From positions 32,047 to 83,151 of the forward strand of contig NZ_KE387029.1 of NCBI RefSeq assembly GCF_000430045.1: DNA of 51,105 bases, written 5' to 3'. The notes under the pieces are model-generated. The model was given only the letters and a program-made list of their open reading frames with translations, ran no database searches and had not been told where the DNA came from. Below, in pieces: positions 24,671-51,105 of the stretch. The DNA is from Calidithermus chliarophilus DSM 9957 (GTDB lineage Bacteria > Deinococcota > Deinococci > Deinococcales > Thermaceae). How positions within the stretch are numbered: the first letter of the stretch is position 1; each line of letters begins with the position of its first letter. The position numbers were made by a program, and so were the translations under genes.

Positions 24671-24909
24671 CGCCCCCGCCCCGGCACATCCTCACCCTGG
24701 TCCCCCCGGTGGGGACCAGGGTGCGCCTGGCGCGGCTGCCCGCGCCCCTGGACCCCAAGTACGCCGCCCTGCGCGACCGCGAGGGCGCCACCGGCACCGT
24801 GCGCCTGGCGAGCGACCTGGCGCGCCAGGTGTGGGTGGAGCTCGACGCCCCGCAGTCCCCCGGCGAGGGCTACTGGATCGACGTGGGGGCGCTCGAGGTG
24901 CTGCCGTGA
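24667..24909 (+). CDS. Small beta-rich protein upstream of recombinase
   Basis: An 80-residue protein from GTG 24667, coupled by GTGA overlaps to both neighbours. The pattern (TLVPPVGTRVRLARL, GATGTVRLASD, QVWVELDAP, GYWIDVGALEVLP) suggests a small SH3-like beta barrel. No function can be named. It might assist the recombinase it is coupled to, such as an excision factor, but it lacks a visible HTH. Confidence 0.6.
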   Translation: MTPPPRHILTLVPPVGTRVRLARLPAPLDPKYAALRDREGATGTVRLASDLARQVWVELDAPQSPGEGYWIDVGALEVLP

Positions 24910-25859
24910 GCCGCGGCGGATACCGCCCCCAAGCCTACCCCTGGGGCCAGGTGCTCCCCGAGCGGCGGGCCGAGCGGGTGCGGGCCTTCCTGGAGGCCGA
25001 CGACCGCGCCGCGCTGTGGGCGCTGCTCAGGCACCACCTCACCACCTGGGGGCGCGCGGGCGAGCGCACCAGCCGGGCCACGCTCAAGACCTACCGCTCG
25101 GGCCTCGAGGCGTTCTTCGGCTTCCTGCTGGCCCAGGGGCTGACCGACCCCGCCCGCCGCGCCCAGGCCGTGCTCGAGCCCCCCGAGGACTTCGGGGCCC
25201 AGTTCGTGCGCTGGCTCGAGCGCCGCCACCGCCCGGCCACCGTCAACGCCCGCCGGGCCGCGGTGCGGGCCTTCTACCGCGCGCTGCGCTGGGCCAGGGC
25301 GACCCAGGCCGACCCGCTGGCCGACGTGCCCAGCGTGCGCGACCCCATCCCCCCCGAGGCCAAGCGCCACCCCTACACCCCCGCCGAGGTCGAGCGGCTG
25401 CTCGAGCGGGCCACCCCCCACGAGCGGGCGATGGTGCTGCTGGGCGCCCACGGCGGGCTGCGCGCCAGCGAGATCATGGGGCTGGAGTGGGCGGCGGTGG
25501 ACCTCGAGGGCGAGGCCCTGCGGGTGCGGGGCAAGGGCTCCAAGGTGCGCCTGGTGCCCCTGTCCGACGCGCTGAGGGGGGCGCTGGAGGCCCTGCCGCG
25601 CGGGGAGGGCCGGGTGCTGCCCTGGCGCCAGACCGACAGCCTGCGCCGCCGCCTGCGCCGGTTGTGCGAGCGCGCCGGGGTGGAGTACAAGGGCGCCCAC
25701 AGCCTGCGCCACCACGCCGGGACCAGGGTCTACCGCGCGACCCGCGACCTCAGGCTGGCCCAGGAGTTCCTGGGCCACTCGGCCATCGCCACCACCGCCA
25801 TCTACGCCAAGATGGACCGCGAACACCTCACCAACGCGGTGAAAGAGGCTTTCCGATGA
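24906..25859 (+). CDS. int: Tyrosine recombinase (XerC/D-like integrase)
   Basis: A 317-residue site-specific recombinase. It has an N-terminal core-binding domain (about 20-125: LKTYRSGLEAFFGFLLAQG, TVNARRAAVRAFYRAL) and a full catalytic set: R186 (GGLRASE), K213 (GSKVRL), H265 and R268 (HSLRHH), H291 (LGHSAIATT) and Y300. The compact size and HSLRHH/LGHS motifs look Xer-like. GTG start 24906 overlaps the previous stop. No attP-like site lies beside it; two inverted repeats with 6-bp centres at 30.27 and 37.45 kb resemble dif geometry. It may integrate the phage or resolve plasmid dimers. Confidence 0.92.
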   Translation: MSRGGYRPQAYPWGQVLPERRAERVRAFLEADDRAALWALLRHHLTTWGRAGERTSRATLKTYRSGLEAFFGFLLAQGLTDPARRAQAVLEPPEDFGAQFVRWLERRHRPATVNARRAAVRAFYRALRWARATQADPLADVPSVRDPIPPEAKRHPYTPAEVERLLERATPHERAMVLLGAHGGLRASEIMGLEWAAVDLEGEALRVRGKGSKVRLVPLSDALRGALEALPRGEGRVLPWRQTDSLRRRLRRLCERAGVEYKGAHSLRHHAGTRVYRATRDLRLAQEFLGHSAIATTAIYAKMDREHLTNAVKEAFR

Positions 25860-26461
25860 CTCAGACCGACTTCCAGACCGGACAAAAGGTGATCCTCGAG
25901 TGGCACGAGGGGCGGGTCTACCGCTGGGCCCTGGCCCAGGTGCAGCTCGTCACCCCCAACGGCAACCTCCGCCTCGAGCCCCCCCATGACCGGGCGGTCT
26001 TCGACCGCTTCGGGCGGGGCACCGGCCCCTACGCCCACCACAACCTGCGCCCCTGGAGCGCCGAGCTGGAGGCCCGCCTGCTCGAGGCCGACCGCCTGGC
26101 AGCCCTCGAGCGGGAGCGGGCCGAGAGGGAGCGGGTCGAGCGGCTGGAGGCCCGCCGCCGCGAGGTGCTGGGGGCCAACGCGGGCCTGGCGTGGCAGCGC
26201 CAGGAGATGCCCGACGGCAGCGCGGTCTACACCTCCCTGGTCAAGCTTCAGCGCGGGGGGCACGCTTTCGCGGTGGTCCACGTCCGGCCCGACCCGGTGA
26301 TAGCGGGCGGCCTGCTGGCCTCCCACACGCTGCTGGGCGCCGCTGGCAGGCTCCTGAACGGGAGCGACGTGGAGACCCGGAGCGTGGAGGAGGCGCTCGA
26401 GGACGCCATCGAGAGCGCCTACCACAGCCTCACGGCGGGCATGACGCCCCGGAAGGAGTGA
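25856..26461 (+). CDS. Hypothetical protein downstream of recombinase
   Basis: A 201-residue protein coupled to the recombinase by ATGA. N-terminal 60 residues have a beta pattern (KVILEWHEGRVYRWALAQVQ), then a charged helix (residues about 75-105, LERERAERERVERLEARR) and a C-terminal alpha/beta part (GGHAFAVVHVRPDPVIAGG). No motif is recognised. Position in the early operon suggests an accessory role. Confidence 0.6.
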   Translation: MTQTDFQTGQKVILEWHEGRVYRWALAQVQLVTPNGNLRLEPPHDRAVFDRFGRGTGPYAHHNLRPWSAELEARLLEADRLAALERERAERERVERLEARRREVLGANAGLAWQRQEMPDGSAVYTSLVKLQRGGHAFAVVHVRPDPVIAGGLLASHTLLGAAGRLLNGSDVETRSVEEALEDAIESAYHSLTAGMTPRKE

Positions 26462-26463
26462 GT

Positions 26464-27390
26464 ATGCCGGGCAAAACCGCGATCGAATGGACCGACCGCA
26501 CGTGGAACCCCGTCGTGGGCTGTACCAAGGTCAGCCAGGGGTGCAAGTTCTGTTACGCCAAGACCCTCCACGACATGCGCCACCGGGCGAAGCTCGCGGG
26601 CAAGCCTTTGCCCGAGCAGTACGCCCTGCCCTTCGAGCGCGTGCAGCTCAAGCCCGAGCGCCTCGAGCTGCCCCTGCGCTGGAAGAGACCGGCCCGAATC
26701 TTCGTCAACAGCGTCTCCGACCTCTTCCACGAGGACGTGCCGTTCACCTACGTCGCCGCGGTGTTCGGGGTGATGGCCGCCACGCCCCGCCACACCTATC
26801 AGGTGCTCACCAAACGGCCCCAGCGGATGCTCGAGTTCTTCCGCTGGGTGCGCAAGGCAGTGCCGGGGGTATACCCCACCAGCCTGGCAATGGGGCTGGC
26901 CGAGCCCTACACCAACGGGCGGACCGGGCCGAGGTACGTCAGCAGTGCGGTGCCCTGGCCCCTGCCCAACGTCTGGCTGGGGGTGACGGTCGAGGACCAG
27001 CGGGCCGCCGACGAGCGCGTCCCGCTGCTGCTCGCCGCCCCCGCCGCCGTGCGCTTCCTCTCCTGCGAGCCGCTGTTGGGCCCGCTGGACATCGCCAAGT
27101 ACCTGCCCGACCGCCCGGAGGGCGACCGCGACCGCCTGGTGAGCTGGGTGATCGTGGGCGGCGAAACCGGCACGGCCAGCCAGCCCGTGCGCCCGATGCA
27201 CCCGGACTGGGCGCGGTCCCTGCGCGAGCAGTGCAGGGAGGCAGGCGTGCCCTTCTTTTTCAAGCAGTGGGGCGACCACATCACCGACGGCCTCGGGAAC
27301 CCGGTACGGGTCGGGGCCAAGCGCGCGGGTCGCCAGCTCGACGGCCGGGAGTGGGGTGAGTTCCCCCTCGAGGCGGTTTCCAATGATTGA
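26464..27390 (+). CDS. DUF5131 / phage Gp37-Gp68 family protein
   Basis: A 308-residue member of the Gp37/Gp68 family, recognised by the start (IEWTDRTWNPVVGC) and the cysteine cluster C20, C27 and C30 (CTKVSQGCKFCYA). Later blocks FVNSVSDLFHEDVP, QVLTKRPQRML, WLGVTVEDQ, FLSCEPLLGP and WVIVGGETG are also typical. The cluster recalls a radical-SAM-type iron-sulfur site, but the spacing is CX6CX2C and activity is unproven. Such proteins are widespread in phages and mobile elements. ATG 26464 follows AAGGAGTGA. Confidence 0.88.
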   Translation: MPGKTAIEWTDRTWNPVVGCTKVSQGCKFCYAKTLHDMRHRAKLAGKPLPEQYALPFERVQLKPERLELPLRWKRPARIFVNSVSDLFHEDVPFTYVAAVFGVMAATPRHTYQVLTKRPQRMLEFFRWVRKAVPGVYPTSLAMGLAEPYTNGRTGPRYVSSAVPWPLPNVWLGVTVEDQRAADERVPLLLAAPAAVRFLSCEPLLGPLDIAKYLPDRPEGDRDRLVSWVIVGGETGTASQPVRPMHPDWARSLREQCREAGVPFFFKQWGDHITDGLGNPVRVGAKRAGRQLDGREWGEFPLEAVSND

Positions 27391-35307: not shown

Positions 35308-37353
35308 TCAGGGACGGGCCTTCCAGCGCGCGCAGTTGGTGGTGGCGGGGGCGGTGCGCACGGGGGGGTGGGCGCCCAGGGACAGGGCCACCGCCGCATT
35401 CTCGCACCAGCCCAGGGCCTCGCCCTCGCCGGGGGGCTTGAAGTAGGCACAGCCCCGGCACTGGCGGCGGGGGCGGGCCTCGGCCAGGGCGCTGGGCCGG
35501 ATGACCTCGGGCAGTTGGTCCTGGTAGCCGCTGTAGGGGCGCTCGGGCTGGGGCTTGGCGTAGGCGAGCTGGGTCGAGCCCCGGACCCGCATCAGCCCGG
35601 CCACCGCGTAGCCGAAGGCGTGGACAAAGTGGGGGTCGAGGCCCAGGTGCCGGAAGGTGTACTGGTACTCGCCCTCGTCCACCACCTCGCCGCTGCCCTG
35701 GATGCGCCGGGTCTTGGGGATTTGGGTGCGGGCGACGTGCTTGAAGTGCTCGCGCATCTCCTCGAGCAGGGCCACCGGCTTGAGCCGCCCGCCCCGGCGC
35801 AGCTCGCGCACCAGGGTGTAGCCGTCCTTGGGCAGCAGCACCCGGCGGTTGGTGAACAGGGTCATGGCCTGGAGCAGGTGGCGGTAGCGGTGCAGGTCCA
35901 CCAGAAACTCCCACTTGGCCTCGCCGCTGGAGCGCTCGAGGCTCTTCTTCTCCCGCTGGTCGGCCCACTCGATGGGCTGATCCTGGGTGAGGTTGTAGTC
36001 GGCCAGCCAGACCATGCCGCGGGGCATCTCGCTGGCGACGGCCTTGGCGTAGTCGTAGGCGGGCTCGGCGTCGCAGACGACGACGTTGACCGCCCAGCGC
36101 CGCAGCAAATCCGTGGTGCGGGCGACGGCCTCGAGCCCGCTGGCCTCGAGCACCTCCAGCCGCACCAGCCGCACCAGGCCCCCCGGCGCCCACTCCAGGA
36201 TCACCACGTGCTTCTCCACCCCGCGCTGGTCGATGCCCGCCGCGCGCCAGGGGGAGTCGGGGGAGGGGCCCTCGGGGGGCCAGGCCCAGCCGTGCATCGC
36301 GCCCAGCTCGAGCGCGGCCTGCCACACGGTGTCGCCCACCAGGATGGCGTCGGGGTCGGCGTGGGGCAGGCCGAGGTAGGAGTTGTAGAACTCGCTGGGG
36401 TTCTTGCCCTCGACCACCATGCGCTGGTAGGCGCCCCAGAGGTTGGGCAGGTCGCCCGCGCCCTTGAGCACCTGGGAGAAGCTGTAGCCCAGCCACTCGG
36501 CGTCCTCGGGGCCCACGGCGTGAAAGAAGCCGTCCTGCACGTCGTGGATCAGGTGGCCGCAGCGGGGGCAGACGTACTCCATGCGCGCGGCGTCCACGCA
36601 GGAGAGCCAGGTCTCGAGGCTGTCGTACATGACGAACCCGGCGCGGTTGGGGCAGAGGGGGTTGGGGCAGCGGGTGTGCCACCAGTGCTGGGTCGAGCGC
36701 TGGAAGTAGTAATCCACGTCGGCGTTCGGCATCCCGGCGGTGGAGCCCATCATGTGCATCCCGCGCTCCCCGCGGGGGCCGACGAAGGCGCTCTCGGAGG
36801 TGCGCAGGAAGGTGCGCTCGATGGTCGCCACGTCCATCAGGCGCACCTCGTCGAACTGGAGGGCGTCGGTGGGGAAGGAGTCCACGCTCACCCCGCTGCG
36901 CATCCCGCGGAAGCGCATGTTGGAGACGCCGAAGCGCACCGCCTCCATGCTGTCCACCCCGCCCGTGCCCACGAGCTCGAGCATCCGGGGGCTGGAGTGC
37001 ATCATGGGGCGGAAGCGGGTCTTGTGCAGCTCGTACACCGCGTCCTGGGTGGGGAACATCAGCGCCACGTTGATCTGCTGGCGGGTGTCGGCGGTGAGCC
37101 AGGCCGCGCGGTAGATGAAGTGCAGGGTGAGGCCGAGCTGGGCGGCCTTGCGCACCACCAGGCGGTGGTAGAAGCGCCCGCGCTCCTCGCCGTAGAGGGG
37201 ATCGAGGTAGCGACGGCGCTCGAGGCTGAACTCCCGCGAGCCCTCGGGCCGGATGCCCGAGGCCAGGGCGAAGCGGCGCAGGGTGGACAGCTCCTCGGGG
37301 CTGAACACCGGGGGCGGCAGCCGCAGGGAGTCGAGGAAGGCTTTTTCAAACAT
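35308..37353 (-). CDS. terL: Terminase large subunit
   Basis: A 681-residue packaging ATPase-nuclease, GpA-like. A variant Walker A region lies around K69-T76 (KAAQLGLT), Walker B at D168-E169 (DALQFDEV), and a zinc ribbon has C229, C234, C262 and C265. The nuclease half begins at AAGIDQRGVEKHVVILEW and includes VVVCDAEPAYDYAKAVASE. C-terminal cysteines (CRGCAYFKPPGEGEALGWCE) add a second metal site. The P-loop lacks the classic GKT, which is common in this branch. It lies after the small subunit and a 130-bp gap with an inverted repeat. Confidence 0.9.
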   Translation of the reverse strand: MFEKAFLDSLRLPPPVFSPEELSTLRRFALASGIRPEGSREFSLERRRYLDPLYGEERGRFYHRLVVRKAAQLGLTLHFIYRAAWLTADTRQQINVALMFPTQDAVYELHKTRFRPMMHSSPRMLELVGTGGVDSMEAVRFGVSNMRFRGMRSGVSVDSFPTDALQFDEVRLMDVATIERTFLRTSESAFVGPRGERGMHMMGSTAGMPNADVDYYFQRSTQHWWHTRCPNPLCPNRAGFVMYDSLETWLSCVDAARMEYVCPRCGHLIHDVQDGFFHAVGPEDAEWLGYSFSQVLKGAGDLPNLWGAYQRMVVEGKNPSEFYNSYLGLPHADPDAILVGDTVWQAALELGAMHGWAWPPEGPSPDSPWRAAGIDQRGVEKHVVILEWAPGGLVRLVRLEVLEASGLEAVARTTDLLRRWAVNVVVCDAEPAYDYAKAVASEMPRGMVWLADYNLTQDQPIEWADQREKKSLERSSGEAKWEFLVDLHRYRHLLQAMTLFTNRRVLLPKDGYTLVRELRRGGRLKPVALLEEMREHFKHVARTQIPKTRRIQGSGEVVDEGEYQYTFRHLGLDPHFVHAFGYAVAGLMRVRGSTQLAYAKPQPERPYSGYQDQLPEVIRPSALAEARPRRQCRGCAYFKPPGEGEALGWCENAAVALSLGAHPPVRTAPATTNCARWKARP

Positions 37354-39373: not shown

Positions 39374-40125
39374 GGGCGGCCTCCGGCGTCGGGGCCGGGC
39401 CGGGCGTCGGAGGCCAGCTCGGGGGGCACGTAGCCCATCACCCTCCCCCCCCGGCGCACCAGGGCCAGGCGGCCCGCGCGGTGGGCGCGGCGGCGCACGC
39501 GCTCCTGGTCGCGCTCGGTGGGCAGGGACTTGAGGGGTATCCAGCCCGCGGGGGGGCGGGGGGCGAAGCGGCGGGCGTGCCAGTCGGCCACCCGCCGGGC
39601 GGCCTCGGGCTCGAAGAGCAGGCGGCCCAGGCGCCCCTGAAGGCGGGGGACAGCCTGCACGCGGGCGGCCAGGGAGCCGGGGGCGGGGTCTTGCTGGCGC
39701 ACCAGATCGTTGAGGCTGCGGCGGTTGCGCAGGCCCAGCAGCGCGGCGAACCGGGCGCTGTCGAGCCAGTGGGCGTGGGCGCGCTCGGCCTCGAGGCGCT
39801 GCTGGCTGCGGGCGATGTAGGCCGCGGCCCAGGCTTTGGGCACCACCGCCACGCCGGGGCGGGGGCGGGAGATCACCCCCGCGTCCTTGGCGGCCTCCCA
39901 CACCGCGCGCTTGCTCAGGCCCGACTCGAGCACCACCTCCTCCAGGCGCACGGTGTTGCGCGAGCGCGAGGGGAGGTGGGCGCCGAGCTTGTAGGCGCGG
40001 GCGCGCACGCCGCTGAGGGTGCGCCCGGGCAGGCGCTCGAGGCAGTAGCGCGCGCCGCGGCTGGCGTAGAAGCGGCGGATGATGGCCTCCTCGGCCTCGG
40101 TCCAGTGGGGGGCCCGCGCGCTCAT
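39370..40125 (-). CDS. Myb/SANT-like and HTH DNA-binding protein
   Basis: A 251-residue protein. Residues 5-50 match a SANT/Myb-like domain (HWTEAEEAIIRRFYASRG, GRTLSGVRARAYKLGAHLP), followed by a likely HTH (VRLEEVVLESGLSKRAVWEA) and further basic helical segments. ATG 40125 overlaps the dnaN stop. It would bind DNA; a regulator or nucleoprotein factor at replication is likely. No exact family known. Confidence 0.65.
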   Translation of the reverse strand: MSARAPHWTEAEEAIIRRFYASRGARYCLERLPGRTLSGVRARAYKLGAHLPSRSRNTVRLEEVVLESGLSKRAVWEAAKDAGVISRPRPGVAVVPKAWAAAYIARSQQRLEAERAHAHWLDSARFAALLGLRNRRSLNDLVRQQDPAPGSLAARVQAVPRLQGRLGRLLFEPEAARRVADWHARRFAPRPPAGWIPLKSLPTERDQERVRRRAHRAGRLALVRRGGRVMGYVPPELASDARPGPDAGGRP

Positions 40126-41234
40126 ACCCGCAGCGGCACCACGACCGCGACCGCCGAGGCTTCGCGCAGCGCGCTGGGGGCGAGGCCGTTCCACTCCCAC
40201 TCCAGGGTGTCGGCGCCGAGGTGGGCGAGGGCCTCGAGGACGTACTCGCCGTTCATGGGCGCCAGCGTCGCCTCGGGGTTGAGCTGGGCCACCGTCACCG
40301 CGATCTGGTCCACGCCCTGCCCGTACTCGTTCCGGCAGGAGATCACCAGGGTGTTCTCCTCGGGGTTGAGCTGGAAGTCGAGCCGCCTGTAAAGGCCCTC
40401 GGCCAGGGGCATCAGGCGCCGGATCACCGCCATCAGCTCGGCGCGGGGCACCTCGAGGACCGTGGTGGCCGCGCCGCGGGCCGGGATGATGCGGTGGTAG
40501 TCGGGGAACTCGCCCTCCAGCAGCTTGAAGGTGGCGGTGTAGTCCTTGCCGTGGGCGCGCACCTTGCCCCGCCCCAGCTCCAGGCGCGCCTCGCCCTCGC
40601 CCTTGCCCAGCAGCCCCTTGAGCAGGGTGGAGGAGCGGTAGGGCAGCACGAAGGGCGCGGCCTCGCCGCTGGCCTCGCCCTCGACGTAGGCCAGGCGGTA
40701 GCCGTCGGAGGCCACCAGCCGCAGCCTGGCGGGCCCGCCGGGGGCCGCCGGGCGCACCTCGAACTGGATGCCCTGGAAGATGCCGCGGTAGGCCTCGCGG
40801 CTGGCGGCGTACTCGACCTCCAGCAGCTCGGCCAGCCGCGCCGCCTGCACGCGCAGCTCGCCCCTGGGGTCGATGGGCTCGAGCAGGTCGGGGTAGTCCT
40901 CGGCCCCGATGAGGCTGAAGGTGGCGCGGATTTTGCCCGAGCGCACCTCCAGGCCCTCGCTCGCGCGGGAGAGGTCGATGGCGTCGGGCCCCAGGTTGGC
41001 GAGGAACTGCCCGAAGGTGGCGAAGGGCAGGCAGAAGGCGGCCTCGTCGCCGCCCAGGTCGAGCCGGGGGAGGGAGAACACCAGATCGTGCTCGCCGTCG
41101 GTGCCACCGACGAGCACCTTCTCGGCCCGCGGCTGCACCCACAGGTGGGTGAGCAGGGGGTTGGACTGGCGGGGCCGGATCACCCGGCCCAGGGCCTGCA
41201 CCGCGTTCTGAAGGGGTTTGCTGGGTACTTGCAT
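40122..41234 (-). CDS. dnaN: DNA polymerase III beta sliding clamp
   Basis: A 370-residue protein of full bacterial clamp length. The start (FQ-equivalent region QNAVQALGRVIRPRQSNPLL), GTDGEHDLVFSLP, LPFATFGQFLANL, LVASDGYRLAYVEG, EVPRAELMAVIRRLMPLAEG and the C-terminal NGEYVLEALAHLGAD are clear clamp landmarks over three similar domains. It would tether a polymerase to DNA. No phage polymerase is in the window, so it probably serves the host Pol III or one encoded outside. ATG 41234 has AGGAGG. A sliding clamp of this bacterial type is uncommon in phages. Confidence 0.9.
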   Translation of the reverse strand: MQVPSKPLQNAVQALGRVIRPRQSNPLLTHLWVQPRAEKVLVGGTDGEHDLVFSLPRLDLGGDEAAFCLPFATFGQFLANLGPDAIDLSRASEGLEVRSGKIRATFSLIGAEDYPDLLEPIDPRGELRVQAARLAELLEVEYAASREAYRGIFQGIQFEVRPAAPGGPARLRLVASDGYRLAYVEGEASGEAAPFVLPYRSSTLLKGLLGKGEGEARLELGRGKVRAHGKDYTATFKLLEGEFPDYHRIIPARGAATTVLEVPRAELMAVIRRLMPLAEGLYRRLDFQLNPEENTLVISCRNEYGQGVDQIAVTVAQLNPEATLAPMNGEYVLEALAHLGADTLEWEWNGLAPSALREASAVAVVVPLRV

Positions 41235-41269: not shown

Positions 41270-42025
41270 CTAAAAGGGCAGGTCTTCCTCGGGGGGGAAG
41301 CCCTCATCCTCGAGGCCCTCGTCGATGTCGGGGGCGGGTTTTTTCTCCCGGGGCTGACCCTGGCCCTGGCCCCTAGCGCCGACGCCGTGCAGGGGGGTGA
41401 GGGCGTCCACCTCCAGGCGGGTGACGTAGCGCTTCTGGCCGTCCTGCTCCCAGGAGTCGGTCTTGAGGGCCCCGGCCACCTGGAGGGGCTGGCCCTTGCG
41501 GGCTTCGGCCAGGCGCGCGGCCACCTCGTGCCAGGCTTCGAGCTCGAAGAAGTGGCCCACGCTCTCCTTGCGGGCGCTGTTGTAGACGTTGACGGCCAGC
41601 GCCGCGCGGGTCACGGCGTTGCCCTGGGGGGTGTGGCGCGCCTCGGGGTCGCGGGCGAGGTTGCCGATGAGGAAGGCGCGGTTGACGCAGCCCTCGAGCA
41701 GCGGGCCGTACTGGCCCTCGGCCACCCTGGGGGCCTCGAGGCGGTAGACCTCGCTGAACACCGCGTCCACCCGCGAGCGCTTCTGGCCGTCCTGCTCCCA
41801 GGAGCGGTACTCGAGGGCGCCCGCGCAGTACAGCGCGTCGCCGTCGCGTAGGGCCTCGCTCAGCGCCTCGGCGCGCTTGCCCAGCACCTTGCCGCGCACC
41901 AGCGAGAACAGCTCCCGCCCCCCCGCGCTGCGCCTGCCCGCGAGGGTCAGCTCGAGGATCGGCGTCCCCTGGGGGGTGTAGCGCAGCTCGACCTTGGCAC
42001 AGCCACTTGCGACGAATAGGTTCAC
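41270..42025 (-). CDS. ssb: Single-stranded DNA-binding protein, two OB folds
   Basis: A 251-residue SSB with two OB folds in one chain. The first (residues about 1-110) contains GTPILELTLAGRR and YRSWEQDGQKRS; the second (about 115-225) contains NRAFLIGNLARDPEARHTPQ and DSWEQDGQKRYVTRLEVDA. The tail is acidic and ends DLPF, as in bacterial SSB partner-binding tips. Two-OB SSBs are known in Thermus and Deinococcus, which supports the host call. GTG 42025 follows AAAAAGGAGG. Confidence 0.93.
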   Translation of the reverse strand: MNLFVASGCAKVELRYTPQGTPILELTLAGRRSAGGRELFSLVRGKVLGKRAEALSEALRDGDALYCAGALEYRSWEQDGQKRSRVDAVFSEVYRLEAPRVAEGQYGPLLEGCVNRAFLIGNLARDPEARHTPQGNAVTRAALAVNVYNSARKESVGHFFELEAWHEVAARLAEARKGQPLQVAGALKTDSWEQDGQKRYVTRLEVDALTPLHGVGARGQGQGQPREKKPAPDIDEGLEDEGFPPEEDLPF

Positions 42026-43833: not shown

Positions 43834-44085
43834 ATGGACATCGAGCGGATGCGGGCCCTGGGGCCCTTCGGCTTTTTCGTCCTCGAGGCCCTCAAGCGGC
43901 TCGAGGCGCAGTCCCACAACGGCTTCATCACCCTGGGCGGGCGCGACATCGCCCGGATGATCGGGCTGGGCAACGGCACGGTCTATCAGGAGCTCCAGAA
44001 GCTCGAGCGGCTGGGGCTGCTCGAGCGGGTCCAGCGGGGGCGGCGGATTTGGTATCGGCTCATCCCGCAGCAGAGGGCCGCATGA
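43834..44085 (+). CDS. Winged-helix regulator
   Basis: An 83-residue winged-helix protein (LGGRDIARMIGLGNGTVYQE, then LLERVQRGRRIWYRLIP) close in pattern to ArsR/PadR/MarR-type minimal domains. It is transcribed from P43.8 ahead of the initiator, and its stop overlaps the initiator ATG. It may control its own operon or replication timing. Confidence is high for DNA binding, low for target. Confidence 0.75.
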   Translation: MDIERMRALGPFGFFVLEALKRLEAQSHNGFITLGGRDIARMIGLGNGTVYQELQKLERLGLLERVQRGRRIWYRLIPQQRAA

Positions 44086-45041
44086 GCGCCCAGCGCTTCA
44101 CCACCATCCGGCGCTCGAGGCCGGAGCGGGATTTTTTCCTGATGCGCAACAGCGTCGCCCAGGACAAATCACTCACCCCCGAGGCCCTGGGCGTCCTGGT
44201 GTACCTGCTGTCGCAGCCGTGCGACTGGCGGGTGAAGCTCGAGGACATCACGGGCTTCCGCGCCACCGGGCGCGACCGGGCCTACCGCATCCTGCGCGAG
44301 CTGCTCGAGGCCCGCTACATCGTGCGCGAGACCCTGCGCGCCGAGGGCGGGCAGATCGTGGGCGTGGAGTACGTGGTCTACGACGAGCGCCAGCCGGTTA
44401 CGGAAAATCAGGAAGAAGTGACGGAGACACTTCTTCCTGAAAAGCCGGACACGGCAAAGCCGCATACGGCAAACCCGGACACGGCTGAGCCGGACACGGC
44501 AAACCCGGACGCATACAAAGACAGAGTTAAACAAAGCACGAAAATTACAAAGACGGATGATGATGGTGTCGCGCGCGCGCGCGAAGAAAAACCGGAGGTA
44601 ACCCCCCCGCCCCCCGCCGGGCGCGCTGGCGAGGGGAGTGAGCCGCCCCCGCAAGCCCAAGAACCGCCCGCCGACCCCTTCAAGTCTTCCCCGGCCACTC
44701 GTGACGAGTTTCACTTGTTGCGGGAGCTCGAGGCCCTGGGTCTGACCCGCGAGGGCAACCCCATGTCGCAGTGGGCCTGGCACTGCCACGGCACCGGCAT
44801 GAGCCGCGCCACCCGCCAGCAGCTCATGAGCGACTTCGCCGCCCTCACCCGGCGGCACGGGCTGGCGGCGGTGGCCGAGGCGGTGCGCGACACCATCCGC
44901 GCGGGGTCGAAGAGCTGGCGCTACCTGCTGCGCGTCCTCGAGGGGCAGGGCCAGCCCCAGCCCCAAGCCCAGCCCCGGCGCCCCCAGCCGGGCCGCGCCC
45001 ACGACATGAGCCCCGAAGCCTACGAGAGGGAGAGCCTATGA
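44082..45041 (+). CDS. Replication initiator (lambda O-like) with internal origin
   Basis: A 319-residue protein. The N-terminal 110 residues form a winged helix typical of phage/plasmid replication proteins (TPEALGVLVYLLSQPCDWRV, RAYRILRELLEARYIVRET). A low-complexity linker (PDTAKPHTANPDTAEPDTAN) is encoded by four 15-bp iterons. The C-terminal domain (SQWAWHCHGTGMSRATRQQL, about 240-300) is helical, as in DnaD/O partners of helicase loaders. The DnaC-like gene follows with an overlapping start, matching the lambda O-P order. Binding of its own iterons is inferred. Confidence 0.8.
   Translation: MSAQRFTTIRRSRPERDFFLMRNSVAQDKSLTPEALGVLVYLLSQPCDWRVKLEDITGFRATGRDRAYRILRELLEARYIVRETLRAEGGQIVGVEYVVYDERQPVTENQEEVTETLLPEKPDTAKPHTANPDTAEPDTANPDAYKDRVKQSTKITKTDDDGVARAREEKPEVTPPPPAGRAGEGSEPPPQAQEPPADPFKSSPATRDEFHLLRELEALGLTREGNPMSQWAWHCHGTGMSRATRQQLMSDFAALTRRHGLAAVAEAVRDTIRAGSKSWRYLLRVLEGQGQPQPQAQPRRPQPGRAHDMSPEAYERESL
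44408..44440. repeat. Long inverted repeat in initiator gene
   Basis: Perfect 13-bp arms (TCAGGAAGAAGTG and its complement) separated by 7 nt, placed 5 bp before the first iteron. Confidence 0.9.
44445..44512 (+). repeat. Iteron array, 15-bp unit, four copies plus partial
   Basis: Units at 44445, 44460, 44475 and 44490 with consensus CCGGACACGGCAAAN, plus a partial copy at 44505. In phase with the codons, encoding a PDTAx-type repeat. Confidence 0.85.
44513..44570. other. AT-rich stretch; candidate DNA unwinding element
   Basis: 37 of 58 bases are A or T by my count, far above the surrounding sequence. It follows the iterons directly, as in lambda and plasmid origins. A (GC)n run at 44571-44583 follows. 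Confidence 0.65.
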
Positions 45042-45850
45042 GCCTCAAACCCGCCAGACCCGCCCTCGCCAAGGCCGCCCGCGCCGCGCTCGAGGCCATG
45101 CGCCCCGCGCTCACCGGCGGCCAGGCCCAGCCCCAGGCCCCGGCCCGGGAGCCCGAGTGCCCCAACCCCGAATGCACCGACGGCTGGGACTTGCGCCGCG
45201 ACCGCGAGTGCGAGCAGTGCCGCAGCCGCAAACAGCTCGTTCGCCTGCGCGACGAGCTGCTGGGCGCGGGGGTCGAGCCGAGGTATCTGGAGGTGGAATG
45301 GGAACACCTCCAGATGGACGACAACCTCGAGCGCATCCGCAAGGGCTGCGCGGTGATCGAACGGGTGATCCGTGAAGGCCGTAACCTGGCCCTGCACGGC
45401 ATCCCCGGCGCGGGGAAGACCCAGGCCGCGACGCTGATGGTCAAGGCCGCGATCCGCAAGGGGTTCGCCGCGCGCATCTACGCCATGAGCGCCCTGGTCA
45501 CGCAGGCCCGGGCCGCCTGGACCGCGCGCGAGGAGGAGGAACGGCTGTTCGAACGCAACCTGCCCGAGCACATGGCCCGGTTCCGGCTGCTGGTGCTCGA
45601 CGGGGTGGGCGACTTCGAGGCCGCGGGCAAGGCCGACGCCCAGCACAACACCCTCGAGTTCCGCCTGCTGTACGCCGTCCTCAACGCCCGCCAGGGCGCG
45701 GGTCTGCGCACGGTGATCACCACCAACCTCACCCAGAAGCGCTTTGCCGAGCACTTCGGGCCCCAGGTGGTCAGCCGCCTCAAGCCCTTCAGCGCGCTCA
45801 ACATGGTGGCCCGCGACTGGCGCGAGCGGGAGACCCCCCTCGACTGGTGA
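45038..45850 (+). CDS. DnaC-like helicase loader
   Basis: A 270-residue AAA+ protein. N-terminal zinc-type cysteines (CPNPECTDG, CEQC) around residues 43-66, Walker A GIPGAGKT at 121-128, and Walker B ending at D188 (LLVLDGVGD), where the usual second acidic residue is Gly. ITTNLTQKRFAEHFG and RLKPFSALNMV near the end are DnaC/IstB hallmarks. It would load a replicative helicase at the origin in the preceding gene. ATG 45038 overlaps the initiator stop. Confidence 0.88.
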   Translation: MSLKPARPALAKAARAALEAMRPALTGGQAQPQAPAREPECPNPECTDGWDLRRDRECEQCRSRKQLVRLRDELLGAGVEPRYLEVEWEHLQMDDNLERIRKGCAVIERVIREGRNLALHGIPGAGKTQAATLMVKAAIRKGFAARIYAMSALVTQARAAWTAREEEERLFERNLPEHMARFRLLVLDGVGDFEAAGKADAQHNTLEFRLLYAVLNARQGAGLRTVITTNLTQKRFAEHFGPQVVSRLKPFSALNMVARDWRERETPLDW

Positions 45851-45866
45851 GGGGGGTCAAGTGCAA

Positions 45867-45977
45867 ATGACCGCGCCTGCCGTTACCGGAGCCGTTATCA
45901 TCTCCGGCGTAACGGTGGGGATTACAAAAATCGTGACAATCCGTGACATGGAGCAATACAAATGGCGACTACTGTAG
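45867..45977 (+). CDS. 36-residue hydrophobic peptide
   Basis: ATG 45867 follows the DnaC-like stop by 16 bp. Val/Ile/Thr-rich (GAVIISGVTVGITKIVTI) with a short charged tail. The ribosome site is weak and the segment also contains an imperfect inverted repeat (CCGTTAC..GTAACGG, about 45881-45916), so it may be regulatory rather than coding. Confidence 0.35.
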   Translation: MTAPAVTGAVIISGVTVGITKIVTIRDMEQYKWRLL

Positions 45978-46213
45978 ATAACAACCCGGCGCTCGAGGCC
46001 CTGCTGAACGAACTGGACACCACCGACGACCCGCAGGAGGAGGGCGAGCTGATGGAGCTGGCCCACCTCGCCCACCTCGCCTTCACCCGGCTCGGCGGGC
46101 CCAAAGCGGCCCGCCAGCCGCTCGAGCGGCTGGCGGGGGTGCTGACGGGCGGGCCCACGCCCGGGCTACTCGAGCGCCTTCAGGCCCTCTTCGATGGCGT
46201 AGATCACCAGTGA
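45962..46213 (+). CDS. Small acidic protein
   Basis: An 83-residue acidic protein (LEALLNELDTTDDPQEEGEL) with a helical C-terminus. GGAG lies 8 bp before ATG 45962. Its end overlaps the 3' end of the convergent ribbon-helix-helix gene by 48 bp, so transcripts would be antisense to each other. Could act as a partner or DNA mimic; unproven. Confidence 0.55.
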   Translation: MATTVDNNPALEALLNELDTTDDPQEEGELMELAHLAHLAFTRLGGPKAARQPLERLAGVLTGGPTPGLLERLQALFDGVDHQ

Positions 46214-46558
46214 GGACTGGGTGACGCGGGTCGGGTGCCGCTCCTTGGACAGGGCGGCGGCCGCCTCCTTGAGGCTTTCCTGGAGCTCGGGCCGCAGCCG
46301 GTTGGAGAGGGTGGGGTCGGAGGGGTGGGCCATCGGGAAGTACTCGGGCAGGGTCTCGGGCGCCGTGCGCCAGACCCGCAAAAACTCCGAGATGAAGCTG
46401 TCGAGCAGGTCGCCCACGTAGGTGCGGTGGCGCACGGCGGCCTCCTTGAGGCGGTTCTTGAGGTGCTGGGGCACCACCACCGTGAAGGGGGTGCGCACCG
46501 TCACCTCCTCGGGGCTGGGGCCGCGCATCAGCCCGGCGTAGACCTCGCGGTTAGGCAT
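46166..46558 (-). CDS. Ribbon-helix-helix partition partner (ParB-like)
   Basis: A 130-residue protein. The centre (TPFTVVVPQHLKNRLKEAAV, residues about 23-42) has the strand-helix pattern of a ribbon-helix-helix, and the C-terminus has a second such motif (HPTRVTQSSLVIYAIEEGL). It follows parA with overlapping stop/start, the arrangement of type Ib partition systems. It would bind a centromere site and stimulate ParA; the site is not identified. Confidence 0.7.
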   Translation of the reverse strand: MPNREVYAGLMRGPSPEEVTVRTPFTVVVPQHLKNRLKEAAVRHRTYVGDLLDSFISEFLRVWRTAPETLPEYFPMAHPSDPTLSNRLRPELQESLKEAAAALSKERHPTRVTQSSLVIYAIEEGLKALE

Positions 46559-47336
46559 GGGCCGTCACCCCCTCGAGCTTCTCCAGCAGCCGCTCCCCGA
46601 AGGCTTCGTAGTCCTTGGCCCCCCGGCTGCGGGGCTTGTACTCGAAGGCGGTCTGGCCTTTGGTCGAGCACTCGGCCAGGGCGGTGTTGCGGTGGATGAC
46701 CCCGAGGTTGCGCGGGCCCAGGCCCTCCAGCTCCTCGAGCAGCTCGCCCGCGATCTTCTCCCGCCGGTTGACCAGGGTGCCCAGCATCCCCAGCACCGCC
46801 GGGGCGGTGCCCAGCTCGGCCTTCATGGCCTCCAGCCGCCGGGTGAGGCCCCGGGCGCCGCTCTTGCCCGACCCGGGGGCCATCGGGACCACCACGAGGT
46901 CGGAGGCGTACAGAGCCACCAGGCTCACGAGGTTGACGGTGGGCCCCACGTCCACCACGCAGAAGTCGTAGCCCTTGAGCTCGGCCAGCCGCCGGGCGAG
47001 CGCCGGGTAGGGCCGGGGGCGGCGGGAGAGCTGGATTTCGACCTCGGCAATGCGCGGGTCGTTGGGGATGAGGTCCAGCCCCGGGCGCACGTCGAGCATC
47101 ACCAGCTCGGAGGCGCGCCGGAAGTGGCGCAGGGCCGGGTCGTCGTGGAGCAGCAGCTCGTACATCCCCGCCCTGGGCTCGTCGGGCAGGCCCAGAAACT
47201 CCCCGGCCTGGCCCTGTGAGTCGATGTCGATGAGGAGCACGCGCTTGCCCTGCTGGGCCAGGAAGTGCGCCAGGTGGACCGCGGTGGTGGTCTTGCCCAC
47301 CCCCCCTTTCTCGGCCGCTACTGCGATTGTTCTCAT
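46551..47336 (-). CDS. parA: ParA partition ATPase
   Basis: A 261-residue ParA/MinD-type ATPase. Deviant Walker A KGGVGKTT at residues 10-17 with both lysines, Walker A' LLIDIDSQGQ, Walker B-like FCVVDVGPTVN and VVPMAPGSGKSGARGL. It lacks the N-terminal HTH of type Ia ParA. ATG 47336 has AAGGAGG. Next to a ribbon-helix-helix gene and downstream of the repressor, it would be expressed in the lysogen and keep an extrachromosomal prophage. Confidence 0.92.
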   Translation of the reverse strand: MRTIAVAAEKGGVGKTTTAVHLAHFLAQQGKRVLLIDIDSQGQAGEFLGLPDEPRAGMYELLLHDDPALRHFRRASELVMLDVRPGLDLIPNDPRIAEVEIQLSRRPRPYPALARRLAELKGYDFCVVDVGPTVNLVSLVALYASDLVVVPMAPGSGKSGARGLTRRLEAMKAELGTAPAVLGMLGTLVNRREKIAGELLEELEGLGPRNLGVIHRNTALAECSTKGQTAFEYKPRSRGAKDYEAFGERLLEKLEGVTAHA

Positions 47337-47379
47337 GTCCCTCCTTCGGCCAGTGGCCGGACAGCGCGACGTGAGGGCC

Positions 47380-48033
47380 CTACAGCCCGACCCCCAGCCT
47401 GGGAATCGCCCAGGTGACCACCCCGTAAACCCGCTCGCCGCCCGCGAGCCGGAAGCTCTCGCCCTCGAGGGCGGGGCGCTGGCGGTAGTCGCCGTTGCCC
47501 AGGTAGAACGCCAGCTCCAGGCCGCGCTCGCGCAGCAGCACGACCAGCTCGCCGGGCACGGGGCTCTCCTCCAGGCGGCAGCCCACGTTCTGCCCCGGCC
47601 ACAGCAGCGGGGCGTAGCGCTCGGTGCGCACCTGGAACATGAAGTCGGCCCCCGGCAGGTCGGGGGTGGCGCGGCGGGCCACGGTCGCCCGCGGGCGCTC
47701 GCCCTCGAGGTACAGCGGCACCTCGGCGGCGGGCGTGATGGGGTCGCCCAGGCCGTCGGCGGGGCTGAGCAGGGGCAGCTCGAGCCCGGTGTCCCTGCGG
47801 AAGCGCGCCGCGTCGCCGTCCCAGAGCAGGTGGATGATGGTGCGCAGCTTCCCGGCGCTGATGGTGCGGCGCAGGAAGTAGTCCGGGTCTTTCTCCATCG
47901 ACCAGAACCAGTTGCGCGTGACCGCCTCGTAGAGCGGGTTGTTCTCGGCCAGCTTACGGGAGGACTCCTCGAGCTTGCGGTAGGTGAGTTTGCGTTCGAG
48001 CCGTTTGCGGGCAATGGCCTGTCCGTGGTTCAT
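47380..48033 (-). CDS. CI/LexA-like repressor (S24-fold, catalytic serine not seen)
   Basis: A 217-residue protein. N-terminal 60 residues fit an XRE-type DNA-binding domain (GQAIARKRLERKLTYRKLEE). The C-terminal half has the S24 pattern (APLLWPGQNVGCRLEESPVP, VVLLRERGLELAFYLGNGDY, RVYGVVTWAIP) but where a Ser-Met pair is expected there is ERYAP, so self-cleavage may be lost. It is the only long repressor-like gene, sits in the divergent region, and is followed by parA. It is the obvious candidate for operators O1-O5. Confidence 0.75.
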   Translation of the reverse strand: MNHGQAIARKRLERKLTYRKLEESSRKLAENNPLYEAVTRNWFWSMEKDPDYFLRRTISAGKLRTIIHLLWDGDAARFRRDTGLELPLLSPADGLGDPITPAAEVPLYLEGERPRATVARRATPDLPGADFMFQVRTERYAPLLWPGQNVGCRLEESPVPGELVVLLRERGLELAFYLGNGDYRQRPALEGESFRLAGGERVYGVVTWAIPRLGVGL

Positions 48034-48209: not shown

Positions 48210-48233
48210 TTGACCCCTGCCCTGTGGATAAGT
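48210..48233 (+). promoter_or_regulatory. Late element L9 (variant)
   Basis: TTGACC (48210-48215), 12 bp, ATAAGT (48228-48233), 6 bp to ATG 48240. The most AT-rich -10 of the ten copies. Confidence 0.6.
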
Positions 48234-48239
48234 GGGGTC

Positions 48240-48470
48240 ATGAGCCTCGACCTCGACACCCTGCACGCGCGCTTCAGCGCCCTCACCGGCGCGCAAATCG
48301 CCCGCGTCTCCGCCCGAACGGGCATCAGCCGCAACACGCTCTACCAGCTCAAGGACCGCCGCCGCCTCGAGCGGGCCAAGCTCGCCACCGTGCTCGGCGC
48401 CCTCCAGGCCCTCGAAGGGCCCCAAGACCCCCCGCCCCCCGCCTCTGACCCCTCGGGGGCGGGAGCCTGA
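48240..48470 (+). CDS. Small HTH protein (Cro-like position)
   Basis: A 76-residue protein with an HTH (IARVSARTGISRNTLYQLKD, residues about 20-39). It faces the repressor gene as Cro does in lambdoid phages, but its start is linked to a late-type element (L9), and it is followed at once by the portal. A TTG start at 48210 is in frame but lies inside L9; ATG 48240 is chosen. Confidence 0.7.
   Translation: MSLDLDTLHARFSALTGAQIARVSARTGISRNTLYQLKDRRRLERAKLATVLGALQALEGPQDPPPPASDPSGAGA
48445..48468 (+). promoter_or_regulatory. Late element L10 (portal)
   Basis: CTGACC (48445-48450), 12 bp, GAGCCT (48463-48468), 6 bp to ATG 48475. Confidence 0.7.
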
Positions 48471-48474
48471 AGCC

Positions 48475-50229
48475 ATGAGCGACGTGGACCCCCAAGCGCT
48501 GAAGGCGGCCCGGACCGCCATGCAGCCCGACGCCCCGCCCGACGAGCGCCAGGACGCGGCCCTCGAGGTGGCCCGGGGCGTCAAGGGCGCGGTGCCGGTG
48601 TTCTCCAAGGCCGACCTGTTCAAGGCCGCGGCCTACGGCTACGCCGTGGCCCAGCGCCGGGCGGGGCAGGCCAAGAGCGACACCGCCGACCCCTTCCGCA
48701 TCTTCCGGCCCTCGCCGGTGCTCTCGGGCAGGCCCGCGCCGCTGGGGTTCGCCCAACTGCGCTCGCTGGCGACGCACGACGTGATCCTGGCCTCCATCGT
48801 GCTCACCCGCCAGCGCCAGGTGGCGTCGCTGGCCCAGGCCGCCCAGATGGACCGCGACCCGGGGTTCCGGGTCAAGCTGCGGGGGCTGAAGGACTCGGAG
48901 ATGACCGACGGGGCGCGCCAGCGCATCGAGTGGCTGACGCGCTACGTCGAGAACTGCGGGGCGGAGTTCAGCCCCTTCGCCCGCAAGAAGCTCAAGCGCG
49001 ACGACTTCTCGACCTTCCTCAAGAAGGCGGTGATGGACACGCTGCTCATGGACGCCATGCCGGTGGAGATCGTGCGCACCCACTCGGGGCGCCCCCACGG
49101 GTTCAAGAGCGTGGACGGGGCCACGGTCTACGTGGCCCCGCCGGAGGGCTTCGAGGACACCCTGCCCGAGCCCGTCGCCGCGACCTACGAGCTGCCCGAC
49201 CTGGGGGACGTGGACGGGATCATGGTGGTGGACTCGCAGGTGCAGCACTGGTTCCGCTACGACGAGCTGCTGTACCCGCTGCGCAACCCCCGCACCGACC
49301 TCTACGGCGCGGGCTACGGCCTGGCCGAGACCGAGCTGATGCTCAGGGTGATGACCGGGCTCGTCAACGTCCTCTCCTACAACCAGAAAGCCTACTCGGA
49401 GAACCACGTGCCCCAGGGCTTCCTCACCGTGTTCGGGGACTTCAGCGACGAGGACGTTGAGGTCTTCAAGAACGAGTGGGCCAGCTACGTGGCGGGGGTG
49501 AGCAACGCCTTCCGGCTGCCGGTGCTGGTGTCGAAGGACAAGGAGAGCGGGGCGGTGTTCACCAAGACCGGGGTGGAGGTCACCGAGATGGCCTTCGTGA
49601 AGCTCATCACCCTCTACATCGCCATCGAGGCCGCGCTCTACGGCATCGACCCCAACGAGATCGGCTTCGAGAGCTTCACGTCCAAGTCCTCCAGCCTCTC
49701 CGACGGCTCGGTGGAGAGCCGCCTGGCCGCCAGCCAGGACAAGGGGCTCAGGCCGCTGTTGCAGCACCTGCAAAGCCCCTTGCAGGCCATCCTCGAGGAC
49801 GTGGACCCCGACGCGGTGTTCACCTGGACCGGCTTCCAAGACCCCAAGGAGGCCGCCGAGTTCGACAAGCTGGTACTGACCTTTGGCGAGGCCCGCGAGC
49901 GGGCGGGCCTGCCGCTGACCGGCGACGCGATGCTGGACAACGCCCCCCTCAACCCCGCCATGCAGAGCGTGTACCTCCAGGCGCAGGGCATGGCCCAGAT
50001 GGGTACAGAGGCCGGGGGCGAGGGCGAGGGCGAGGAGGGCTGGCCGCCCCAGGAAGGCGAGGAGGGCGAGGGGGGCCAGCACCAGGGCCAGGACCGGCAG
50101 GAGGCGGACGGCGGGGATGAGGGTGCGGACGGGGGCGAGGAGGGGGCGCAGCCCCAGAATCTGGTGGCGCAGCTCATACGCCGCTTCGGCAAGGGCAAGG
50201 TGAGGGGCGGGGCCGGAGGTGGGGCGTGA
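48475..50229 (+). CDS. Portal protein
   Basis: A 584-residue portal, the dodecameric ring through which DNA enters the head. Recognisable parts: SLATHDVILASIVLTRQRQV, WFRYDELLYPLRNPRTDLYG, GYGLAETELMLRVMTGLVNV and YNQKAYSENHVPQGFLTV, then a TAIEAALYGIDPNEIG-like segment and a SSLSDGS loop. The last 75 residues are Gly/Glu-rich and low complexity. The start is set by L10. The gene is coupled (GTGA) to a 2H phosphoesterase gene. Confidence 0.88.
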   Translation: MSDVDPQALKAARTAMQPDAPPDERQDAALEVARGVKGAVPVFSKADLFKAAAYGYAVAQRRAGQAKSDTADPFRIFRPSPVLSGRPAPLGFAQLRSLATHDVILASIVLTRQRQVASLAQAAQMDRDPGFRVKLRGLKDSEMTDGARQRIEWLTRYVENCGAEFSPFARKKLKRDDFSTFLKKAVMDTLLMDAMPVEIVRTHSGRPHGFKSVDGATVYVAPPEGFEDTLPEPVAATYELPDLGDVDGIMVVDSQVQHWFRYDELLYPLRNPRTDLYGAGYGLAETELMLRVMTGLVNVLSYNQKAYSENHVPQGFLTVFGDFSDEDVEVFKNEWASYVAGVSNAFRLPVLVSKDKESGAVFTKTGVEVTEMAFVKLITLYIAIEAALYGIDPNEIGFESFTSKSSSLSDGSVESRLAASQDKGLRPLLQHLQSPLQAILEDVDPDAVFTWTGFQDPKEAAEFDKLVLTFGEARERAGLPLTGDAMLDNAPLNPAMQSVYLQAQGMAQMGTEAGGEGEGEEGWPPQEGEEGEGGQHQGQDRQEADGGDEGADGGEEGAQPQNLVAQLIRRFGKGKVRGGAGGGA

Positions 50230-50762
50230 GGGCCGTGCTGCGCGTGGCTAAGGCCGACGCCCCCAAGGAGGCGGGGCGGGGGGTGATGCTGTGCCTGGTG
50301 CCCCCGCTCGAGGTGGCCCAGGCCCTGGCCCTGCCGGGGGGCCTGCCGCCCAGGGAGCTGCACCTCACCCTGGCCTACCTGGGCAAGCTGGGGGAGGGGG
50401 TGACGCCGGAGGCGCTGGCGCGCCTGATGCCCGCCGCGCGCTTCCTCGCCGCGATGATGCCGCCCCTCGAGGCCCGCGTCTCGGGCCTGGGGCGCTTCTC
50501 CCTCCCAGGGGGGGACGCCTTTTACGCCAGCGTGGACCACCCGAGGCTGCCGGAGTTCCGCCGCGTCTGGGTCGAGCTGTGCCAGCGCCTCGGGGCGCCC
50601 CCGGTGCTCAACCACGGCTTCACCCCCCACATCACCCTGTCCTACCTGACCCCCGCCGCCCCCCAACCCCTGCAACGCCTCGAGCCCCTGGCCTGCCGCT
50701 TCGACAGCGTGCAGCTCTGGGCGGGGGAGGGGCGGGAGGTGTTTTGGCTGGGGAGGGGCTGA
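50226..50762 (+). CDS. 2H phosphoesterase (2'-5' RNA ligase family)
   Basis: A 178-residue protein with both HxT motifs of the 2H family: H46-L-T48 (HLTLAYLG) and H135-I-T137 (HITLSYL). Family members hydrolyse 2',5' or cyclic phosphodiesters in RNA or nucleotides. In phages such enzymes can destroy cyclic-nucleotide alarm signals of host defences (CBASS, Thoeris-like); here that is inference. Location among head genes is common. GTG 50226 overlaps the portal stop. Confidence 0.88.
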   Translation: MRAVLRVAKADAPKEAGRGVMLCLVPPLEVAQALALPGGLPPRELHLTLAYLGKLGEGVTPEALARLMPAARFLAAMMPPLEARVSGLGRFSLPGGDAFYASVDHPRLPEFRRVWVELCQRLGAPPVLNHGFTPHITLSYLTPAAPQPLQRLEPLACRFDSVQLWAGEGREVFWLGRG

Positions 50763-50763
50763 G

Positions 50764-51105
50764 GTGGAGCACGACATCTGGCAGCCCGACCCCGACCCCC
50801 TCAAGGCGCGCCTCGAGGCGGCCTTCTACGCCCTGGGCCAGCGCTACCTGATCGAGGTGCACCAGGCCGTACACCGCGCGCTGGGGCTGCCGCAGGTGCC
50901 GCGCCTGAGCGTGGCGAAAGCCTACCGCCTGCCCCTGCCCCTGCTGCTCCTCGCCAAGGCCCAGCGCCGGGGGCTGGGCCGGGTGGGGGAGGAGCTCGAG
51001 CAGCGCTGGGAGCGCAGCCGGGTGGAGTGGGGCAGCGCGGTGCGGCGCTTCGTGGACCTGCTCAGCCGCAAGGACGGCGCCCTGGCCCGCGAGCTGGCCG
51101 GGGCC
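50764..51105 (+). CDS. Partial gene after the portal (3' end outside window)
   Basis: Begins at GTG 50764 after GGGAGGGG and stays open to the right edge (114 codons). The visible part is helical (ARLEAAFYALGQRYLIEVHQ, ELEQRWERSRVEWGSAVRRF). By position it may be a head morphogenesis or minor capsid protein. Family not recognised. Confidence 0.55.
   Translation, partial: MEHDIWQPDPDPLKARLEAAFYALGQRYLIEVHQAVHRALGLPQVPRLSVAKAYRLPLPLLLLAKAQRRGLGRVGEELEQRWERSRVEWGSAVRRFVDLLSRKDGALARELAGA

Follow-up and report, generated by a model that had tools for sequence, protein, structure and literature searches.

An 83,151-bp scaffold (C9) in a 4.69-Mb Thermaceae genome of nine contigs carries what appears to be a temperate phage whose prophage is probably maintained as a low-copy, partitioned plasmid. 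We assign this reading, drawn from sequence comparison, a probability of about 0.78, since its relatives with an integrase lack ParA, whereas the three elements that carry ParA lack an integrase. An initial annotation of the window, the 51,105-bp stretch analysed here (bases 32,047–83,151 of the scaffold, reaching its end), had proposed a phage-plasmid; the proposal stands as the best explanation, supported by this mutual exclusivity and not by the replication genes. What is known of phage-plasmids comes mainly from Enterobacterales and a small number of other groups, and our literature search found no description of one in Thermus or its relatives. It is about an even call whether the element stands for a new phage-plasmid lineage of Thermaceae and related hosts, combining a Soj-like ParA, a covalent pseudo-dimer ribbon–helix–helix (RHH) protein and a peptidase-less repressor in a partition module not described before and swapped with repressor–integrase cassettes; in that case, one operon would determine whether lysogeny proceeds by integration or as a partitioned plasmid.

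Phage genes extend over the full length of the scaffold, which is separate from the 3.08-Mb contig; the remaining large contigs measure 928, 261, 168 and 156 kb. Its 83,151 bp showed no recognisable host DNA, tRNA fragment or integrase, and ARAGORN predicted no tRNA on it. The scaffold probably belongs to the present host, because its tetranucleotide usage matches that of the host (r=0.978, with 0.977 for another Thermaceae chromosome). Its virion genes are syntenic with those of the Thermus phages phiMa, Cumys and Lalka8/27b and of a prophage in genome G004 (Table 1). The virion and packaging set comprises homologues of terminase, portal, MCP, sheath, baseplate and tail proteins, with one head gene cut at the scaffold end. 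The terminase is 58% identical to those of Cumys and phiMa, 46–47% to those of Lalka8/27b and about 50% to that of G004. The Thermus phages also share a repressor/switch module with the scaffold, and the Lalka phages an Xer-like recombinase, an SSB and a clamp. These similarities point to a temperate, contractile-tailed phage of the phiMa/Lalka type.

Table 1. Features located in the window (positions counted from its first base).
Feature	Position	Strand	Basis or remarks
Candidate recombination site	24693..24723	.	Repeat search; 13-bp-arm inverted repeat upstream of recombinase
Xer-like tyrosine recombinase	24939..25859	+	XerC/XerA/XerD profiles; start codon uncertain
Terminase large subunit	35308..37353	-	58% to Cumys
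Sliding clamp, DnaN-like	40122..41234	-	Pfam, PHROG
SSB	41270..42025	-	Profile match
Replication initiator, O/DnaD-like	44082..45041	+	PHROG; 35% to G004 initiator
Probable lambda-type origin within initiator gene	44408..44510	.	13-bp-arm inverted repeat and 4.7 iterons of 15 bp
DnaC/IstB-like helicase loader	45038..45850	+	Pfam, PHROG
Candidate parS/operator	45851..45961	.	CCGTTA pair (12 bp apart) and CGTGACA pair (10 bp apart)
Small ORF, convergent, overlapping 3' end of RHH gene	45962..46213	+	ORF list
28-bp perfect palindrome beside end of RHH gene	46110..46137	.	Repeat search
Predicted centromere-binding partner, 130 aa	46166..46558	-	N-terminal tail disordered; single chain with two RHH units
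ParA partition ATPase, 261 aa	46551..47336	-	Walker A of deviant type (KGGVGKTT); N-terminal HTH absent
Putative prophage repressor, 217 aa	47380..48033	-	Position; LexA/S24 peptidase domain not recognisable
Cro-like HTH gene, divergent from repressor	48210..48470	+	Weak HTH matches; G116 relative about 40%
Portal protein	48475..50229	+	Homology; 56% to G004 portal

The relatives divide according to what follows the repressor. A LexA-like repressor precedes a tyrosine integrase in Cumys and phiMa, and Lalka8 shows the same arrangement with one gene in between; in G004, the order is tRNA-Ser (cga), integrase, repressor. The G004 prophage, 77.8 kb long, lies in the chromosome (G004:C2, about 197.4–275.2 kb) between attL and attR copies of about 61 nt, a duplicated tRNA segment, located 17.40 and 95.18 kb into the chromosomal segment analysed; restriction-modification-like genes occur near its right end. 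Unlike our scaffold, phiMa, Cumys, Lalka8 and the G004 prophage have no ParA, the ParA matches of G004 falling outside the prophage. Lalka27b, an isolated phage, has neither integrase nor ParA, and a P1-like plasmid state is only suggested for it by its authors (PMC11437467). ParA was found in two further elements, the metagenomic IMG/VR contigs G116 (79,030 bp) and G117 (80,753 bp), which were retrieved with a five-sequence terminase alignment after a single-sequence terminase search returned nothing. Both carry ParA (53–55% identical to that of the window), with an Xer-like recombinase only, and their repressor–ParA–RHH operon adjoins the initiator/loader block and a Cro-like gene. G117 has a terminal direct repeat of 127 bp, as circular assemblies typically do, and the record holding the G116 element is a Polyangiaceae MAG into which it was binned.

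Thus, none of the relatives examined combines ParA with an integrase, although the par-bearing elements known number three and two of them, G116 and G117, are close mutual relatives. The par genes lie directly downstream of the repressor, the position of the integrase in relatives, but the whole lysogeny module is oriented differently with respect to the portal and initiator genes and is not strictly colinear. The linear maps of our scaffold and of G116/G117 open at different places among virion genes, never at the repressor locus, whereas G004 is opened by integration at that locus. The initial annotation had pointed to att sites and host junctions as the features to look for. The attL/attR pair at tRNA-Ser of G004 was the only one found, with none at our element, and 59 distinct host tRNAs yielded no fragment longer than 15 nt on the scaffold as an att site; nor were host junctions recognised anywhere on it, including the recombinase flanks and the lysogeny region. 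Such close relatives, differing in integrase versus partition genes, offer a natural comparison for the switch of lysogeny mode in temperate phages.

The scaffold itself contains two 100-N gaps, and its ends do not overlap. Both ends fall within head genes, away from the lysogeny module. The minor-head gene (50764–51105) loses its conserved C-terminal part at the scaffold end; this part was not detected elsewhere in the genome by similarity, and the other contigs hold no second full copy of the end sequences. Joining the two ends in frame gives a 1347-aa ORF, which we rejected as a sign of circularity: about 80 N-terminal residues match the minor head protein, the C-terminal part is absent past the join and sequence is therefore missing at the closure. 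A separate scaffold with unclosed ends would equally be obtained from free phage DNA, packaged or replicating, in the culture. It is thus conceivable, though unlikely, that the scaffold represents lytic or carrier-state phage DNA, or an excised prophage, in which ParA and the RHH protein are present and stable plasmid inheritance is not; Lalka27b, isolated with neither integrase nor ParA, fits such a lifestyle. Against it, conservation of the repressor/Cro switch and of the operon in three divergent genomes implies selection during lysogeny, and a ParA would presumably be of little use in a purely lytic cycle.

The repressor, parA and RHH genes had been described as co-directional and close, and they do form a tight minus-strand operon. 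The repressor stop codon is followed after 43 nt by ParA, which has its own GGAGG Shine–Dalgarno sequence, and the RHH start overlaps the ParA stop by 8 nt. ParA matches, over most of its length, Pfam AAA_31 (1.2e-32) and PHROG_164 ‘ParA-like partition protein’ (2.7e-49); together with its match to Soj of T. thermophilus (2.3e-29), these hits rule out a chance ORF. An alignment of the three ParA homologues showed invariant K10, K15, D37, D39 and D129, so that the Walker motifs are intact, including the Walker A' and B aspartates. A small ORF occupies the same spot beyond the RHH gene in G116 and G117, with no detectable sequence similarity to that of the window.

The protein encoded downstream of ParA is hard to place by sequence, its RHH_5 match (E 0.0018) lying below the cut-off. 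Its two relatives in G116 and G117 are 30–32% identical over the whole length, and all three share a strongly conserved motif, MPN(K/R)xxYxGLM, at the N-terminus. Apart from one marginal match in a Thermaceae genome (E 4.9e-4, 39% over 63 aa), no close relatives were found in 111 genomes of the phylum or in phage and plasmid collections. An AlphaFold model built from the three sequences (mean pLDDT 81.5) shows an 18-residue disordered N-terminal tail followed by two successive strand–helix–helix units, which predicts a tandem, single-chain RHH protein. In Foldseek searches of the PDB, the model ranked first with F-plasmid TraY (E 0.003), followed by DndE and then by VirC2 (E 0.22) and single-chain Arc, and weak sequence matches in the PDB include omega repressor and ParG, both RHH proteins of partition systems. 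To our knowledge, the RHH partition proteins described so far are homodimers of one RHH unit, and the single-chain tandem form modelled here would seem to be a new variant. Coming from a thermophile, a centromere-binding protein with its RHH units in a single chain could be useful as a structural model. The protruding N-terminal domains of omega are thought to contact ParA (PMC9499535), and by analogy the conserved N-terminal motif may do the same.

Tandem RHH chains have structural precedents in TraY and VirC2, and VirC1/VirC2 constitute a Par-like pair that does not partition DNA (PMC8406263). The ParA–RHH pair could accordingly be VirC-like, positioning DNA for packaging, for instance, with no partition system involved. 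We regard this as the least probable of the readings considered: the closest kin of the ParA are Soj and plasmid ParA proteins, with only a weak match to the VirC1 profile (1.4e-6), and the operon sits with the repressor, in the place of the integrase and away from the packaging genes. VirC and TraY share the tandem RHH fold with our protein, and VirC alone the ParA-like partner, but both operate in conjugation or T-DNA transfer. Neither relaxase nor type IV secretion genes were seen among the Pfam- and PHROGs-annotated genes of the element.

The first gene of the operon is a putative repressor, identified by its position, its divergent orientation with respect to the Cro-like gene and a helical N-terminus predicted with confidence; the model of its C-terminal domain was too uncertain for use. 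PHROG and NCBIfam gave no match to it and Pfam none that was significant; its homologues in G116 and G117 are 37–39% identical. Peptidase_S24 is matched by the repressors of Cumys, Lalka8 and Lalka27b but not by those of the three par-bearing elements. The difference between the two lysogeny types therefore extends to the entire operon, including its repressor.

An initiator, a loader, an SSB and a clamp of its own had also been put forward as a reason to consider the element a plasmid. All four genes are real; however, the replication genes do not discriminate a plasmid from an integrated prophage, because the G004 prophage, integrated at tRNA-Ser, carries the initiator with iterons of the same type, the loader and the clamp. 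The initiator genes of G116 and G117 hold other iterons, spaced by 22 bp. Two separate stretches of the SSB match the SSB profile, which suggests that one chain holds two OB folds.

The only tyrosine recombinase recognised on the scaffold is 52% identical to the Xer-like recombinase of the Lalka phages, 56% to those of G116/G117 and 29% to the phiMa integrase. Its R-H-R-Y catalytic residues are in place, all aligned members conserving R, HxLRH, H and Y. Inverted repeats lie upstream of the recombinase gene in both our scaffold and Lalka, but their sequence is not conserved, and a lox/dif-like site common to the recombinase genes was rejected. Resolution of dimers by this protein, as first suggested, is possible; circularisation of the infecting DNA is an equal alternative, because an Xer-like protein (52%) is also present in the integrating phage Lalka8. 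Integrative elements that use Xer recombinases exist. The recombinase could likewise insert the element at a non-tRNA site such as dif, ParA–RHH being accessory, and its identity to that of Lalka is compatible with this. We nevertheless hold such integration to be very improbable, since there is no host DNA at either scaffold end and no host join at the recombinase flanks or in the lysogeny region. Moreover, Lalka8 has, besides its Xer-like recombinase, a separate integrase adjoining a tRNA fragment (PMC11437467).

For the partitioned plasmid that we favour, a candidate parS or operator lies in the gap between the loader gene and the small ORF. The two CGTGACA copies in this gap are the only ones on the scaffold, and CCGTTA occurs three times in the whole scaffold. 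The matching gaps of G116 and G117 contain GTTA direct repeats 11–14 bp apart, so that short repeats with 10–14 bp spacing occupy the same gap in the three genomes. An equal number of short repeats is reached by about 1–3% of shuffled gaps. These are short repeats only, and no parS array was found.

From these features, we infer a plasmid state with a parS, a partition activity and a role for the recombinase, as follows. In the lysogen, the repressor promoter would also transcribe parA and the tandem-RHH gene, the operon taking the place that repressor and integrase hold in integrating relatives. The RHH protein would bind a centromere close to the operon and, through its free N-terminal tail, stimulate nucleoid-bound ParA–ATP, distributing the plasmid copies. 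Replication would be driven by the phage initiator and loader, acting at the iterons inside the initiator gene, and the Xer-like recombinase would circularise incoming DNA, resolve dimers or both. T. thermophilus is described as polyploid, with megaplasmid par genes that are conditionally essential (PMC10085754), and the element would test partition in the family of this polyploid species.

P1 and P7 are contractile-tailed temperate phage-plasmids with ParA and Cre. Compared by features, they resemble our element in the contractile tail, temperate lifestyle, ParA and a tyrosine recombinase, which in our case could act like Cre. P1 differs in its HTH-ParB and RepA-type initiation, the element having an RHH protein and lambda-type initiation. 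The closest functional precedent comes from the actinobacteriophages of cluster A: about 20% of the temperate phages there have parABS where the integration cassette would otherwise be, and their prophages are kept outside the chromosome (PMC7157519). As in RedRock and the others, a partition cassette replaces the integration cassette within a related temperate group (PMC7157519). However, ours is an unrelated Thermaceae myovirus, with par genes after the repressor, a tandem-RHH partner and an initiator with internal iterons that is common to its integrating relatives. The delta/omega system of pSM19035 and ParF/ParG of TP228 also combine, in the same locus, a ParA without N-terminal HTH and a small RHH protein whose N-terminal tail is disordered. 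Yet omega and ParG are single-RHH homodimers, whereas two RHH units per chain are predicted here; the ParA is longer, of Soj-like size, and no heptad-type parS array was found. New with respect to these systems would be a probable Thermaceae phage-plasmid lineage, the exchange of par for integrase and the tandem-RHH partner.

Some further genes were noted in passing. The first gene of the scaffold (C9:34-3702) encodes a large polyvalent protein, one stretch of which is methylase-like. Between the portal and minor-head genes, a 2'-5' RNA ligase/2H phosphoesterase-like gene (50226–50762) could encode an anti-defence enzyme. A DUF5131 protein (26191–27390; PHROG 2045) also matches the PADLOC candidate defence models PDC-M41B and M30B. 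On the host chromosome, a dense cluster of many low-scoring tRNA genes (G000:C3:780700-784500) resembles a mobile-element tRNA array.
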